Of a stretch of 22,794 nucleotides of DNA, positions 6,200-17,241 are shown piece by piece. The position numbers and the translations under genes are program-made. Position 1 is the stretch's first letter, and each line of letters opens with the position of its first letter. This stretch comes from a virus. The stretch spans positions 1 to 22,794 of the IMG/VR virus record IMGVR_UViG_3300022934_000206; one strand, 5' to 3'. The notes beneath the pieces were generated by a model. That model was not told where the DNA came from. It saw nothing but the letters and a program-made list of their open reading frames with translations, and made no database searches.

Positions 6200-6808
6200 T
6201 TATGAGCCACTCGTAGTCGGCGGGAGCGGTTTGTATATTTTGTATCCTTTGTGGATGACTACCTCTTTGCATAGCTCGATGAATTCCTCGTCCGTGAGTT
6301 GCCCTTTTGCCTGGTTTGCTTCGGTGCATAGGATTTGTAAGTTGTTGAGCGTATTGTCCCCGCCTCTTGAGATGGGTATGATATGATCGTATTGATAATC
6401 TTCGGGGTTCTCGAACTTGAGTGGTCTGCCTGTCAGGGCGCAAGGGAAGTGATCCCCGAATTTTGCATGAACGTCCTTGTAGTTAAAAGTCATTGATTTT
6501 TGGAACTGGTGAGATTTTTGAGTGATCGCCTTTTTTATTTGTTTAGGCGACTTGTGCTGATACCAGGGTTGCTTCGGAGGGGATGGGGTGCGTGGGTTCT
6601 TGAAGTGCCAAATGCGTTTTATATGGAGTGGTACTGAGGTAGTCTCGCGTTGTTTTCGTTCTCTGTCCCGGACCTTTTGTTTTTGTCCGGGTGCGAGGTG
6701 GTAGGAGATGGTGGACTTTGAGCAATTTAGGTGTTGTTGTATTTTGCCGTATGACCAACCGAGTAGTCGGAGCCGGATGATTTTCGGCCCCAACCCTTTG
6801 TCACCCAT
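6200..6808 (-). CDS. HNH endonuclease with N-terminal helix-turn-helix
   Basis: The 202-residue protein starts with a helix-turn-helix ([20 protein letters not shown], about residues 13-32) followed by a basic linker. It ends with an HNH nuclease: [20 protein letters not shown] then [10 protein letters not shown] (about residues 140-170), with the D-H, the central N and the N-x-x-K elements visible. Free-standing HNH proteins of this kind may be homing nucleases or, beside a small terminase, packaging helpers as in HK97-like phages. The neighbour 6801-7328 is small-terminase-like and the two genes overlap by eight bases, which favours a packaging link, but this is inference. Confidence 0.85.
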
Positions 6809-7392: not shown

Positions 7393-7833
7393 ATGGATAC
7401 GGAACGGGCGAAAAAGATCTTGGCGGATGCGGGTATTGAACATTCTGAATTTGCGGAAAAGTTGGGTATCAAGGCGGGTAGTTTTCGGATGAACTTGAGC
7501 ATGGGTCGCTTGAGCAAGAAAGCGGTTGCCATGTTGTTGGAGTTGGAAGCGGACTTGAAGGAGGACAAGAAGGAGGAACCTTCGGAGGCTGCGATGGTGA
7601 AGGAAGGCATGATTCGTCAGACTTTGGGGGAACCTTTGGAGAAACTTGCGAAGGTATATATGTTACCGAAGAATCCCTATTTGCGACTTGTTGAATTCAA
7701 GGACGGGACTCATGGCAAGTTCAAGGCCCAACCTGGTAAGTTTGGCTTGGGTGCGATTGTCAAGTTGGCTCATGAGCAGGGCGATATGTATCGCTTAGTG
7801 GGCAGGTACGACAGGAAGGATCGGTTGGTATGA
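7393..7833 (+). CDS. HTH (XRE-like) regulator, 146 aa
   Basis: Residues about 12-50 (HSEFAEKLGIKAGSFRMNLS then GRLSKKAVAMLLELE) fit a helix-turn-helix of the XRE/Cro type. The C-terminal part (about 80-146) is a different domain, with FKDGTHGKFKAQPGKFGLGA and a probable beta-rich fold that I do not recognise. It is the first gene of the long + strand block and is divergent from the small-terminase-like gene, with a dyad between them, so it may repress its own and the opposite promoter. It overlaps the next gene by four bases (ATGA). Its start has no Shine-Dalgarno sequence. Confidence 0.7.
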   Translation: MDTERAKKILADAGIEHSEFAEKLGIKAGSFRMNLSMGRLSKKAVAMLLELEADLKEDKKEEPSEAAMVKEGMIRQTLGEPLEKLAKVYMLPKNPYLRLVEFKDGTHGKFKAQPGKFGLGAIVKLAHEQGDMYRLVGRYDRKDRLV

Positions 7834-8288
7834 GCGAAGATGCGATTGAGATTCGTGACCTCGTTGCCGTTCTTTTGGGCCTGATGCCCGTTGGTGAGCG
7901 CAGGATTGTAACTATGTACTATTTGGAAGGGTACAAGTGCCGGGAGATAGGCGAGCATTTCGGGGTGAGTTCAACGCGAATCAACGTGCTTGTTCGTGAG
8001 ATTATCAATCAATGCGGATATTTGGTTACCCAGTTGGACAAGAAGAGGGCGGTATTTTTCAAACCGTTGATTTCGATGAAGTCGGTATTGTTTGATCATA
8101 CTTACTACACGAAGAAGAAGTTGTTGGATCGTCGTAAGGCAATTCAAACCAAGCATGACATGGAGGAAGAGTGGGCATACGAGAACTTCCAAGAACATTG
8201 GGCCGACAGGATACGGAAAGGTCGCTACGTCCATCCTGCCATTCGCAGGGCTTACAAACGGTTGGTGGAGGAATCTGAATGTGGATAA
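7830..8288 (+). CDS. Sigma-region-4-like HTH protein, 152 aa
   Basis: The N-terminal part (about 10-52) reads LLGLMPVGERRIVTMYYLEG then YKCREIGEHFGVSSTRINVL, matching the region-4 helix-turn-helix of sigma factors (Leu-Pro-x-x-E-R-R-I-v-x-x-Y-Y-x-E-G, then E-I-G-x-x-x-G-V-S). Region 2 is absent. The rest is basic and aromatic with no recognised domain. This is the second region-4-only protein in the window, so a role in redirecting transcription, perhaps toward the late promoters, is reasonable inference. Its start overlaps the HTH regulator (ATGA) and its end overlaps the start of the methyltransferase. Confidence 0.7.
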   Translation: MSEDAIEIRDLVAVLLGLMPVGERRIVTMYYLEGYKCREIGEHFGVSSTRINVLVREIINQCGYLVTQLDKKRAVFFKPLISMKSVLFDHTYYTKKKLLDRRKAIQTKHDMEEEWAYENFQEHWADRIRKGRYVHPAIRRAYKRLVEESECG

Positions 8289-9526
8289 TCCCCAAAACGT
8301 TATCTCATTTTGTACCGGATACGGAGGGCTTGAGCTTGGAATTAGACGAGCGGGCGTGGATATTAGAACAGTCTGCAATGTTGAGATCGAAGCCTTCGTC
8401 CAAGCAAACCTGGTTGCGAAGATTGAAGAAGGGCGGATGGATAACGCCCCTATCTACTCGGATCTTAAAACCTTCCCTGCATCAATCTTTCGAGGAAAAA
8501 TACACGGAATTTGTGGGGGTTACCCTTGTCAGCCCTTCTCCAGCGCGGGGAAGCGAAAAGGAGAAGAAGACCCAAGACACTTATGGCCGTATATCCGAAA
8601 GCACGTCAGGACAATTAGACCTCTTTGGTGCTTTTTCGAGAACGTCCGAGGTCACGCCACGATGGGGCTATGGCGAGTCTTGTCCGATTTGGAAGAAGAT
8701 GGTTACCGAACGGAGTGGGGATTGTTCAGCGCGGAGGAAACAGGCGCGCCTCACCAACGCATCCGATGCTTCATCCTTGGGAGGCTGGGCAACCCCGCAA
8801 GCCTCCGACCACGTGGAGGGCGCGAGAACCGCGAAGGAGAGCAATCAGAAGTGCTTGGGACGGGATTTGAATCAAATGGAGAATTGGCCAACCCCGCGAG
8901 AGACGATGTCGAGGGACGCGACTTACGACAGGGGGAAGTGCAATCTAGGGGAAGTGGTACACAACCCGAAGAACTGGCCCACCCCGCGAGCCGGGAACCC
9001 CGGCAGTCGCAAGCCCGGAACGGGGGGCAAGATATTGGCGGAGGAAGCGAAGAAGAATTGGGCGACTCCAAACACGATGGACTGTCTACCAAGTCGGAGT
9101 TACGAGGCGATGAAGCGTCAAGCAACCAACGGAGGACGGAAGAATCGGAAGCGTCCAGGGAATCTAAGAGAACAGATAGACCCGCTGATGTGCCAAGCAT
9201 ACGAGGATGCAAGTCGGGAAGCGAACCAACACGCTGGCCCGCCCGCCCCGGAGAAGAGCAGTACGAGTGGGAAGAACCACGGGTCGTGGCCGACTGCAAG
9301 GTCAAGCGATGCGGAGGGCGGGAGGATACAGACGGAGCAAACGGAGAAGGGATTTCGGAGCAAGCGGGAGAAGAGCGATCAATACTTCGGAGCGAAACTG
9401 AGGGATGCTGCAGAAATGAACAAACCACCCACGATGAAGCTCAATCCGAATTGGGTGGAGCAGTTGATGGGTCTCGAAGTGGGGTGGACCCAATTGCCAA
9501 CCGAGTGGATCGGCTCCGACTCTTAG
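8279..9526 (+). CDS. Overlapping WPTP-repeat frame inside the methyltransferase gene (415 aa)
   Basis: A second frame runs 415 codons inside the methyltransferase gene. Its ATG at 8279 overlaps the GTG of the methyltransferase (ATGTG), so both share one GGAGGA site. The translation is protein-like and resembles uncharacterised phage proteins: SGQLDLFGAFSRTSE, CPIWKKMVTERSGDCSARRK, then WATP/WPTP/WPTP/WATP/WPTA elements at 8786, 8885, 8975, 9059 and 9287, and a C-terminus LNPNWVEQLMGLEVGWTQLP. Each WPTP element is the same DNA as an LANP-type element of the methyltransferase. First-position G enrichment favours the methyltransferase frame, so this one may be a conserved shadow or a real overprinted gene. 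Confidence 0.45.
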   Translation: MWIIPKTLSHFVPDTEGLSLELDERAWILEQSAMLRSKPSSKQTWLRRLKKGGWITPLSTRILKPSLHQSFEEKYTEFVGVTLVSPSPARGSEKEKKTQDTYGRISESTSGQLDLFGAFSRTSEVTPRWGYGESCPIWKKMVTERSGDCSARRKQARLTNASDASSLGGWATPQASDHVEGARTAKESNQKCLGRDLNQMENWPTPRETMSRDATYDRGKCNLGEVVHNPKNWPTPRAGNPGSRKPGTGGKILAEEAKKNWATPNTMDCLPSRSYEAMKRQATNGGRKNRKRPGNLREQIDPLMCQAYEDASREANQHAGPPAPEKSSTSGKNHGSWPTARSSDAEGGRIQTEQTEKGFRSKREKSDQYFGAKLRDAAEMNKPPTMKLNPNWVEQLMGLEVGWTQLPTEWIGSDS

Positions 9527-9606
9527 GGAATGGCGTAGTACCCCAATGTGCTGAACTTGCATGGAGAACTTTATGGAAACAATTAAACGACAGGGAGGAT
9601 AAATAA
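8281..9606 (+). CDS. DNA (cytosine-5) methyltransferase
   Basis: The 441-residue protein has the ordered motifs of C5 methyltransferases: motif I ISFCTGYGGLELG (8-20, S-adenosylmethionine binding), motif IV GGYPCQPFSSAG (79-90, catalytic Cys83), motif VI FFENV (118-122), motif VIII QRIRCFILG (159-167) and motif X RVDRLRLLGNGVVPQ (408-422). Between VIII and X lies a long hydrophilic region (about 168-400) holding repeated LGNP/LANP/LAHP/LGDS elements, the place of target recognition. I chose GTG at 8281 because GGAGGA stands nine bases upstream and motif I begins at once; the frame is open further upstream but inside another gene. It probably methylates phage DNA against host restriction. Confidence 0.9.
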   Translation: MDNPQNVISFCTGYGGLELGIRRAGVDIRTVCNVEIEAFVQANLVAKIEEGRMDNAPIYSDLKTFPASIFRGKIHGICGGYPCQPFSSAGKRKGEEDPRHLWPYIRKHVRTIRPLWCFFENVRGHATMGLWRVLSDLEEDGYRTEWGLFSAEETGAPHQRIRCFILGRLGNPASLRPRGGRENREGEQSEVLGTGFESNGELANPARDDVEGRDLRQGEVQSRGSGTQPEELAHPASREPRQSQARNGGQDIGGGSEEELGDSKHDGLSTKSELRGDEASSNQRRTEESEASRESKRTDRPADVPSIRGCKSGSEPTRWPARPGEEQYEWEEPRVVADCKVKRCGGREDTDGANGEGISEQAGEERSILRSETEGCCRNEQTTHDEAQSELGGAVDGSRSGVDPIANRVDRLRLLGNGVVPQCAELAWRTLWKQLNDREDK

Positions 9607-12945: not shown

Positions 12946-12974
12946 TTGACCTGTAAGGCGTATTGCCTTACAAT
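12946..12974 (+). promoter_or_regulatory. Promoter P1 with dyad spacer, before portal
   Basis: TTGACC (12946-12951), exactly 17 bases, then TACAAT (12969-12974). The spacer begins TGTAAGGC and, with the first bases of the -10 box, ends GCCTTACA, forming an 8-bp dyad. The same arrangement recurs at 16093-16121. The portal ATG lies 11 bases after the -10 box. Confidence 0.65.
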
Positions 12975-12985
12975 ATGTAACGCTT

Positions 12986-16092: not shown

Positions 16093-16121
16093 TTGCCCTG
16101 TAAGGTGTTTTGCCTTACAAT
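16093..16121 (+). promoter_or_regulatory. Promoter P2 with dyad spacer, before scaffold and capsid
   Basis: TTGCCC (16093-16098), 17 bases, then TACAAT (16116-16121). The spacer starts TGTAAGGT and ends, with the -10 box, as GCCTTACA. It differs from P1 at only a few bases, and the dyad is kept. It follows the terminator directly, so it must drive the scaffold and capsid genes. Confidence 0.7.
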
Positions 16122-16149
16122 TTGTAACAGCGAAAAAAGCGCTAGCAAT

Positions 16150-17241
16150 ATGACAGTCGAATCAATCGAAACCGAAGTTGCTACCTCTGAACAAGCTGAA
16201 GGTAGTGAAACGCCCGATCAGGGGAATCTTACGATGGCAGAGCTTGCATCTAATTTGATGAAAGCTAGGTCCGAAGAAGAGCCACCCGGATCACCCGAAG
16301 AGGAAGCGGAATTTTCTGACCTAGCTGAAGAGTCCGAAGAATTGGAGGAAACACAGTCTACTGAGGAACCGGAAGAATCGGAGCAATCCGAGTCCAACGA
16401 TCCGCAGTCCGTTCTTTCAAAGTACAATATTGACCTGGATTCTTTGTCCGAAGAAGAAACCAAGGAACTCGCAAAGTCGCTTTCACTAAGCGCAGTCAAA
16501 CGCTTTGGCGATCTGACCGCACAGAAGAAAGCATTGGCGCAGGAGAATGCCGAGCTATTGGCGCAAGCCCAAGCAAAGCCCGAACCCGCGCAAGTCGAGA
16601 GTCCTGCGTTCCTTAAGGACAATGCACTCCACAACGTGAACGACATCCAAGCACTCCGCAAAGAAGTCGAGAACCTGACCACGCTCATCGAATGGGCTGA
16701 AGAAGGGTTGGAGAACGAAGTTGAGTATGACGATGACGGGAACGAGTACGTGGCCAAGGATGGGGACAAAACCTACACCAAGGCCGACCTTCGCAGAATT
16801 CGTTCAAACGCTCGTAAGGTTCTGCGCAAGGACGCACCCGCGAGACAGAAATGGATCGAGGAACGTACGCAAAGCGACCAACACGCGATCCAAACCTTTG
16901 ACTTCCTTAGTGATGGAGAAAGCGAGGATTACAAATTGTTCATGCAAGTGAAGAGCAATCCACTCTACAAACCATTGGTCGAGCATTTGCCGAACGGCAA
17001 CTTTGCAGTCGGCTTGATGATCGAGGGGATGAAAGCGATCCAAGCGCGCCAGGTCAATACGAGTAAACCGAAACCCAAGCCCAAGGCTCCCGTAGCTTCA
17101 GTCGAAGCGGGAACCGCAAAGCCAAGGACGGAGAACTCACAACGAAAGAAAGCTCTGCAATCGGCCAAGGCAAAATTCGATAAGTCCGGGGACATAGCAG
17201 ACTACCAACACTATCTAAAACTAAAGCGGGCAACCGCATAA
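16150..17241 (+). CDS. Scaffolding protein
   Basis: I chose the ATG at 16150; the frame is open back to 16093 but that stretch is the promoter. The 363-residue product is very acidic in its first third (runs such as EEPPGSPEEEAEFSDLAEES), has coiled helices (about 110-190) and a basic, Pro/Lys-rich C-terminus (KPKPKPKAP then KKALQSAKAKFDKSG). This composition and the position between portal and major capsid are typical of a scaffold that guides prohead assembly and then leaves. No clear Shine-Dalgarno sequence precedes it. Confidence 0.8.
   Translation: MTVESIETEVATSEQAEGSETPDQGNLTMAELASNLMKARSEEEPPGSPEEEAEFSDLAEESEELEETQSTEEPEESEQSESNDPQSVLSKYNIDLDSLSEEETKELAKSLSLSAVKRFGDLTAQKKALAQENAELLAQAQAKPEPAQVESPAFLKDNALHNVNDIQALRKEVENLTTLIEWAEEGLENEVEYDDDGNEYVAKDGDKTYTKADLRRIRSNARKVLRKDAPARQKWIEERTQSDQHAIQTFDFLSDGESEDYKLFMQVKSNPLYKPLVEHLPNGNFAVGLMIEGMKAIQARQVNTSKPKPKPKAPVASVEAGTAKPRTENSQRKKALQSAKAKFDKSGDIADYQHYLKLKRATA

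Follow-up and report, generated by a model that had tools for sequence, protein, structure and literature searches.

Overlapping reading frames in a phage DNA cytosine methyltransferase gene suggest a two-chain enzyme with an overprinted specificity subunit

Two overlapping genes with a common start region

The window analyzed here, the whole 22,794-nucleotide stretch of IMG/VR virus record IMGVR_UViG_3300022934_000206, carries two long reading frames that run over one another on the plus strand. The methyltransferase frame, alpha (positions 8281 to 9606), starts at GTG 8281, stops at 9604 to 9606, and encodes 441 amino acids. The overprinted +1 frame, beta (8279 to 9526), starts at ATG 8279 and extends for 415 amino acids without an internal stop to the stop codon at 9524 to 9526. 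Both starts are held in the pentanucleotide ATGTG, and a Shine-Dalgarno sequence, GGAGG (8267 to 8271, plus strand), is common to the two frames, 7 nucleotides before the ATG and 9 nucleotides before the GTG. The double-coding region that the original prediction described from these features is real. The gene upstream (7830 to 8288) ends within the same junction, ATGTGGATAA (8279 to 8288, plus strand), where the beta ATG, the alpha GTG, and the TAA of the upstream gene (8286 to 8288) bring three frames into use within 10 bases; translational coupling at this junction is possible. The start-junction sequence, ATGTGGAT or GTGTGGAT, is retained across most of the family, and RNA folding at the alpha/beta start site revealed nothing unusual.

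Alpha is most readily read as the catalytic subunit of a C5 methyltransferase, with motifs I to VIII and motif X in a frame (8281 to 9606) that lacks motif IX and a recognition domain. Its large domain (8281 to 8811, plus strand; residues 1 to 177) contains motifs I to VIII, including the catalytic PCQ, is modeled with pLDDT values mostly above 90, and matches M.HaeIII and M.HhaI in Foldseek searches. The match to Pfam DNA_methylase (E value = 4.8e-30) covers residues 6 to 170 only. Residues 178 to 402 (8812 to 9486, plus strand) form a hydrophilic linker that is predicted to be disordered and that overlaps the beta modules; this linker is near-neutral in the alpha frame, yet it is open in all homologues. 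Behind it, motif X and the C-terminal helices (9502 to 9600, plus strand; beginning RVDRLRLLGNGVVPQ) were assigned from the family motif, which is present in alpha across the family, and from the structure model, in which they and the large domain are the confident parts. Because alpha lacks exactly motif IX and the recognition domain, beta is the likely supplier of both.

Motif IX and tandem modules in the overprinted frame

Beta (8279 to 9526) is a putative specificity subunit, a WPTP protein related to phrog_1008, which it matches with an E value of 3e-18 for the window and down to 8e-74 for other betas. Its N-terminal part (8279 to 8785, plus strand) lies over alpha motifs I to VIII, is open in all homologues, and has no recognized homologue in Pfam or NCBIfam. 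Five modules follow on the plus strand, namely module 1 (WATPQASDHVEGARTAKESNQKCLGRDLNQMEN; 8786 to 8884), proposed to be a recognition cassette, module 2 (WPTPRETMSRDATYDRGKCNLGEVVHNPKN; 8885 to 8974), module 3 (WPTPRAGNPGSRKPGTGGKILAEEAKKN; 8975 to 9058), module 4 (beginning WATPNTMDCLPSRSYEAMKRQATNGGRKNRKRPGNLREQIDPLMCQAYEDA; 9059 to 9286, linker included), and module 5 (WPTARSSDAEGGRIQTEQTEKGFRSKREKSDQYFGAKLRDAAEMNKPPTM; 9287 to 9436). The five W[PA]T[PA] elements of beta and the LANP-type elements of alpha are identical bases read in two frames, and both readings, as originally proposed, were confirmed on the sequence. The LANP elements had been taken for the recognition region of the methyltransferase; this did not hold, as the alpha stretch is near neutral and predicted to be disordered, and the WPTP reading is the conserved one. 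The recognition domain most likely lies in the WPTP frame rather than in the LANP frame.

The modules are followed by LNPNWVEQLMGLEVGWT (9440 to 9490, plus strand), the counterpart of M.HhaI LHPRECARVMGYPDSY. By alignment to M.HhaI, the end of beta, LNPxWVExLMGxPxGW, is C5 motif IX, with LNPDWVEWLMGYPISW aligning to LHPRECARVMGYPDSY. This alignment was made on L363, a locus where the motif sits in the alpha frame and whose chain matches Pfam DNA_methylase end to end (residues 2 to 322 of 324); a weaker form occurs in L391. Artificially joining alpha and beta did not carry the Pfam match through motif IX, and the match also stops short of motif IX in several in-frame actinophage enzymes. When beta was modeled alone, the structure was poor (mean pLDDT of 54) and confident around motif IX only. 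Opposite beta motif IX, in the window and in homologues, alpha has a conserved W..EP...G...RVDRL ahead of motif X, and both frames look conserved over 9440 to 9490.

A census of 75 window-type genes recovered 268 modules of 61 types (25 of them seen at least three times), with 1 to 7 modules per gene in 64 distinct arrangements. In 56 gene pairs, the N-terminal parts of beta are more than 90% identical and the module sets are different. We infer from the position and shuffling of the modules that each one may be a recognition unit.

Single-chain relatives carry the modules within the enzyme

A second pattern search returned 41 actinophage-type loci with motifs I to VIII, IX, and X in one frame. 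In five of them, two or more PTP modules are in frame between motifs VIII and IX, with no more than one in the +1 frame, and these in-frame modules match those of overprinted betas (E values down to 3e-12) as well as the +1 frames of the single-chain class (E values down to 9e-17). Since the in-frame modules sit between motifs VIII and IX, they are placed where a C5 enzyme has its recognition domain.

In 25 of 38 actinophage-type loci (including L398, L410, L414, L415, and L436), the PTP modules lie in the +1 frame and motifs IX and X in the alpha frame, and in L404 and L436 a TGA that overlaps an alpha-frame GTG may close the +1 ORF. These 25 loci do not fit a simple two-chain model; reinitiation, a frameshift, and a third chain are candidate routes by which their +1 modules could enter the enzyme.

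Openness and selection in the two frames

Homologues were collected by a protein search of viral contigs, with near-duplicates removed, giving 76 genes with both frames complete, among them loci retrieved with alpha alone as the query. The beta frame is open over its full length in 76 of 76, ending 17 to 107 nucleotides before the alpha stop, and no gene has fewer than 10 stops in the third frame. To estimate how many stops would be expected, synonymous codons were shuffled in alpha with protein and codon usage unchanged. For the window gene, 5.7 beta-frame stops were expected, and none of 300 shuffles was free of stops. Across the 76 genes, beta had 0 stops versus a mean of 5.6 expected per gene (3.1 over the catalytic part and 2.5 over the remainder), and in the reverse test alpha had 0 versus 13 expected. 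The probability of a stop-free beta was at most 0.027 per gene, with the caveat that the homologues are related and hence not independent. Among the matches listed from pattern searches, 149 overlaps likewise had 0 beta stops versus 4.3 expected per gene; this set was built with alpha-frame stops excluded, so that its alpha figure is no test.

Site-class ratios of the dN/dS type (OLGenie type) were 0.31 for alpha and 0.61 for beta over motifs I to VIII, and 0.89 for alpha and 0.38 for beta over the modules. The beta-type ratio is biased, as neighboring single-frame genes gave 0.53 to 0.81 in an empty +1 frame; because of these controls, the beta ratio of 0.61 is no evidence, and the claim that beta is strongly selected across the catalytic region was dropped. 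A permutation test that keeps both alpha proteins and codon pairs was used, with the stop tests, instead of the ratio. In the catalytic region it gave a beta identity excess of +0.020 (98% of pairs); the excess in control genes was +0.004 to +0.013. Beta stops numbered 0 versus 4.9 expected per pair. Amino acid selection on the N-terminal part of beta beyond the constraint from alpha is therefore weakly supported. In our reading, alpha is dominant over motifs I to VIII, where beta is kept open and weakly constrained, and beta is dominant over the modules, where alpha is a passenger obliged to stay open up to motif X.

Starts nested within the methyltransferase gene

Two positions of the beta start recur among the matches listed. 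In 103 loci it lies within alpha, about 47 nucleotides ahead of the PCQ codons, and in another 97 it lies near the alpha start, as in the window. Among the matches listed, the first start codon of nested betas is preceded by a Shine-Dalgarno sequence of at least 5 nucleotides in 71% of cases and of at least 6 nucleotides in 47%. For the 5-nucleotide threshold, control starts gave 4 to 5.5%; third-frame starts gave 5.5% and 0.5% for the two thresholds, respectively. In the Paenibacillus larvae phages Leyra and Bloom, both nested CDSs have already been annotated, each as "DNA methyltransferase." Lacticaseibacillus phage R9.1 is a further phage with a nested pair.

Distribution among phages and bacteria

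Alpha motifs in frame f, with W/L-PTP modules and motif IX in frame f+1, occur in phages of unrelated hosts, including Synechococcus, Bacteroides, Lacticaseibacillus, Paenibacillus, Escherichia, Salmonella, Klebsiella, Acinetobacter, Vibrio, and Komagataeibacter. Because the beta alignment is very diverse and has no conserved columns, searches with it were replaced by DNA patterns of motif IX, and to avoid selecting for overlap, genome and viral contigs were scanned with the DNA pattern of the beta motif NPxWVEWLMG alone. This returned at least 239 matches. Among the matches listed, a catalytic domain was detectable nearby in about 223 to 225 (strict count of 223, with 110 in bacterial genomes and 113 in viral contigs), and in 216 of these approximately 223 to 225 the C5 catalytic domain overlaps beta in a fixed alpha/+1 register. 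The overlaps comprise 109 of 110 loci in bacterial genomes and 107 of 113 in viral contigs, again among the matches listed, and span many bacterial phyla as well as phages. Each exception that was inspected resembles a truncation, an indel, a tandem copy, or a decayed locus. Hundreds of phage and bacterial sequences share the arrangement, and their annotations usually show one frame.

No convincing stand-alone WPTP gene, or beta apart from an alpha, was found among the matches listed. The original prediction spoke of WPTP proteins that turn up beside phage methyltransferases; that none stood alone is most likely explained by their being the enzyme's missing half and not neighbors in their own right. 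A restriction-linked relative was also sought among plasmids, and the one record inspected had a prophage-type context.

Several individual loci depart from the common layout. One viral contig (L378) holds two nested alpha/beta pairs, both complete and arranged in tandem. In Mycobacterium phage Ochi17 (L149; approximately 1522 to 2284), a C5 methyltransferase is apparently spread over three frames, with motifs I to VI in gp73, VIII and X in gp74, and IX in a third frame, and it appears to be decayed or further split. The divergent members L125, L132, and L133 have another beta start, MKPLVFLPTSLC, an alpha start upstream of MKPLVFLPTSLC, and an unchanged module repertoire; their N-terminal halves appear to have been replaced and their modules kept.

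Other features of the window

An intergenic repeat, TTGmCCTGTAAGGy-T-TTGCCTTACAATwTGTAAC, which contains the inverted repeat TGTAAGGC/GCCTTACA, is present at 12947 to 12982, ahead of a portal-like gene, and at 16094 to 16129, near the start of an ORF at 16093 to 17241. This element is possibly a phage promoter or operator. On the minus strand, an ORF at 6200 to 6808 has an HNH-like motif, read by eye, and likely encodes an HNH endonuclease.

Proposed enzyme and alternative readings

We consider it probable (roughly 0.83) that alpha and beta are the two chains of a cytosine-C5 methyltransferase of the M.EcoHK31I type, in which overprinted beta would carry motif IX and shuffled target-recognition modules. 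Alpha, translated from GTG 8281, would provide the large domain with AdoMet binding, the PCQ catalytic cysteine, and motifs I to VIII, and, past the disordered linker, motif X as a C-terminal helix. Beta would be translated in the +1 frame from the ATG two bases upstream by way of the ribosome-binding site of alpha, and it would supply motif IX and tandem W[PA]TP modules at the position of the target-recognition domain. The two chains would associate into one enzyme, and modules gained, lost, and exchanged among relatives could allow several or changing targets to be methylated, most likely as protection of phage DNA from host restriction. Four points are our inference: this phage makes both chains, the chains assemble, each module has one target, and the enzyme has an anti-restriction role. 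We also regard it as reasonably likely that the locus belongs to a large, ancient class of phage and bacterial C5 enzymes whose specificity subunit is read from an overprinted +1 frame and whose target is changed by cassette shuffling within double-coded DNA, so that every cassette would have to read in two frames.

The original prediction had weighed a real overlapping pair against a repeat-driven shadow, and the pair is favored by the open +1 frame in all homologues, by nested starts with ribosome-binding sites, by the annotation of both CDSs in some Paenibacillus larvae phages, and by a beta C-terminal motif that, among the matches listed, is almost solely overprinted on C5 catalytic domains. 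If the methyltransferase were the sole gene and the WPTP frame a shadow held open by repeats and codon bias, the lack of stops versus the 4 to 6 expected per gene, the evolution of the module region as WPTP coding (ratio of 0.89 for the methyltransferase and 0.38 for WPTP), the ribosome-binding sites of nested starts, and the encoding of motif IX in the beta frame and not in alpha would all be hard to accommodate. We give this reading very little credence, even though constraint over the catalytic region is stronger on alpha, the modules are repetitive, and the permutation controls indicate that conserved proteins look conserved in their shifted frames as well. Judged from sequence, beta is no random shadow.

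Beta might also be a real protein with another role, such as an inhibitor, an anti-restriction factor, or a regulator, and not an enzyme subunit. The N-terminal part without a recognized homologue would suit such a role, and we know of no structure or biochemistry for the beta family; however, alpha lacks exactly the motif IX and the modules in recognition-domain position that beta has, in-frame relatives carry both inside the enzyme, and betas were not convincingly found apart from an alpha among the matches listed, which makes this reading improbable. Quite unlikely, too, is a single chain made by programmed ribosomal frameshifting, passing from alpha motifs I to VIII into the +1 modules and motif IX and back to motif X. 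Such a product would restore the order of motifs I to VIII, modules, IX, and X found in single-chain actinophage-type relatives, some of which have +1 ORFs that end at a TGA overlapping an alpha-frame GTG, but it would require two opposite shifts per molecule, and the beta start codon and the strong ribosome-binding site upstream of the modules in nested relatives would be superfluous for it.

If the two-chain reading is correct, it bears on the many phage and bacterial "DNA cytosine methyltransferase" genes that are annotated with one frame only. Should beta be required, the annotated protein expressed alone would be inactive, and specificity would be unpredictable from it. The class would also be among the most widespread long same-strand gene overlaps in bacteria and phages, and it would pose an evolutionary puzzle, namely how cassettes are exchanged while two reading frames stay open.

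Comparison with known systems

The beta family is already cataloged as PHROG 1008, "DNA methyltransferase," a label that is silent on overprinting and on a role as partner subunit. No description of the overprinted C5 class was found in the open-licence literature that was searched. The original prediction knew of no description of the pairing; M.EcoHK31I is a precedent in principle, so that the arrangement is not wholly undescribed. An actinophage methylase gene has been reported to conceal, in a second frame, an out-of-frame HNH endonuclease, the ShiLan domain (PMC11855218). The present case is similar in that respect; unlike that homing endonuclease insertion, beta has no HNH match and has methyltransferase motif IX. 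In two-chain M.AquI, motif IX and part of the recognition region are on the second chain (PMC3404938). Beta likewise bears motif IX as a second chain. In M.AquI, however, the second chain has motif X as well and the first chain holds the other part of the recognition region, and here motif X is on alpha.

M.EcoHK31I is a restriction-modification enzyme with the target YGGCCR, and its small chain is encoded inside the large-chain gene in another reading frame; M.EaeI is another naturally two-chain C5 methyltransferase. Beta, too, lies in another frame within alpha, here +1, and no restriction enzyme was recognized among the ORFs listed in the window. In M.EcoHK31I, a naturally split C5 enzyme, motifs I to VIII and X are on the larger chain and IX on the smaller, and the recognition domain is assigned to the large chain (PMC3404938). 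By description, the layout proposed here is alike in placing motifs I to VIII and X on alpha and IX on beta; it differs in having several modules, which shuffle and share the beta chain with motif IX.

In Bacillus phages, the multispecific C5 methyltransferases are known as single chains encoded in one frame. Those of SPR, SPbeta, phi3T, rho11, and H2 have tandem target-recognition domains (PMC8936443). The locus described here resembles them, by description, in being phage encoded and in having multiple tandem modules; in contrast to theirs, its modules are in a second, overprinted frame.
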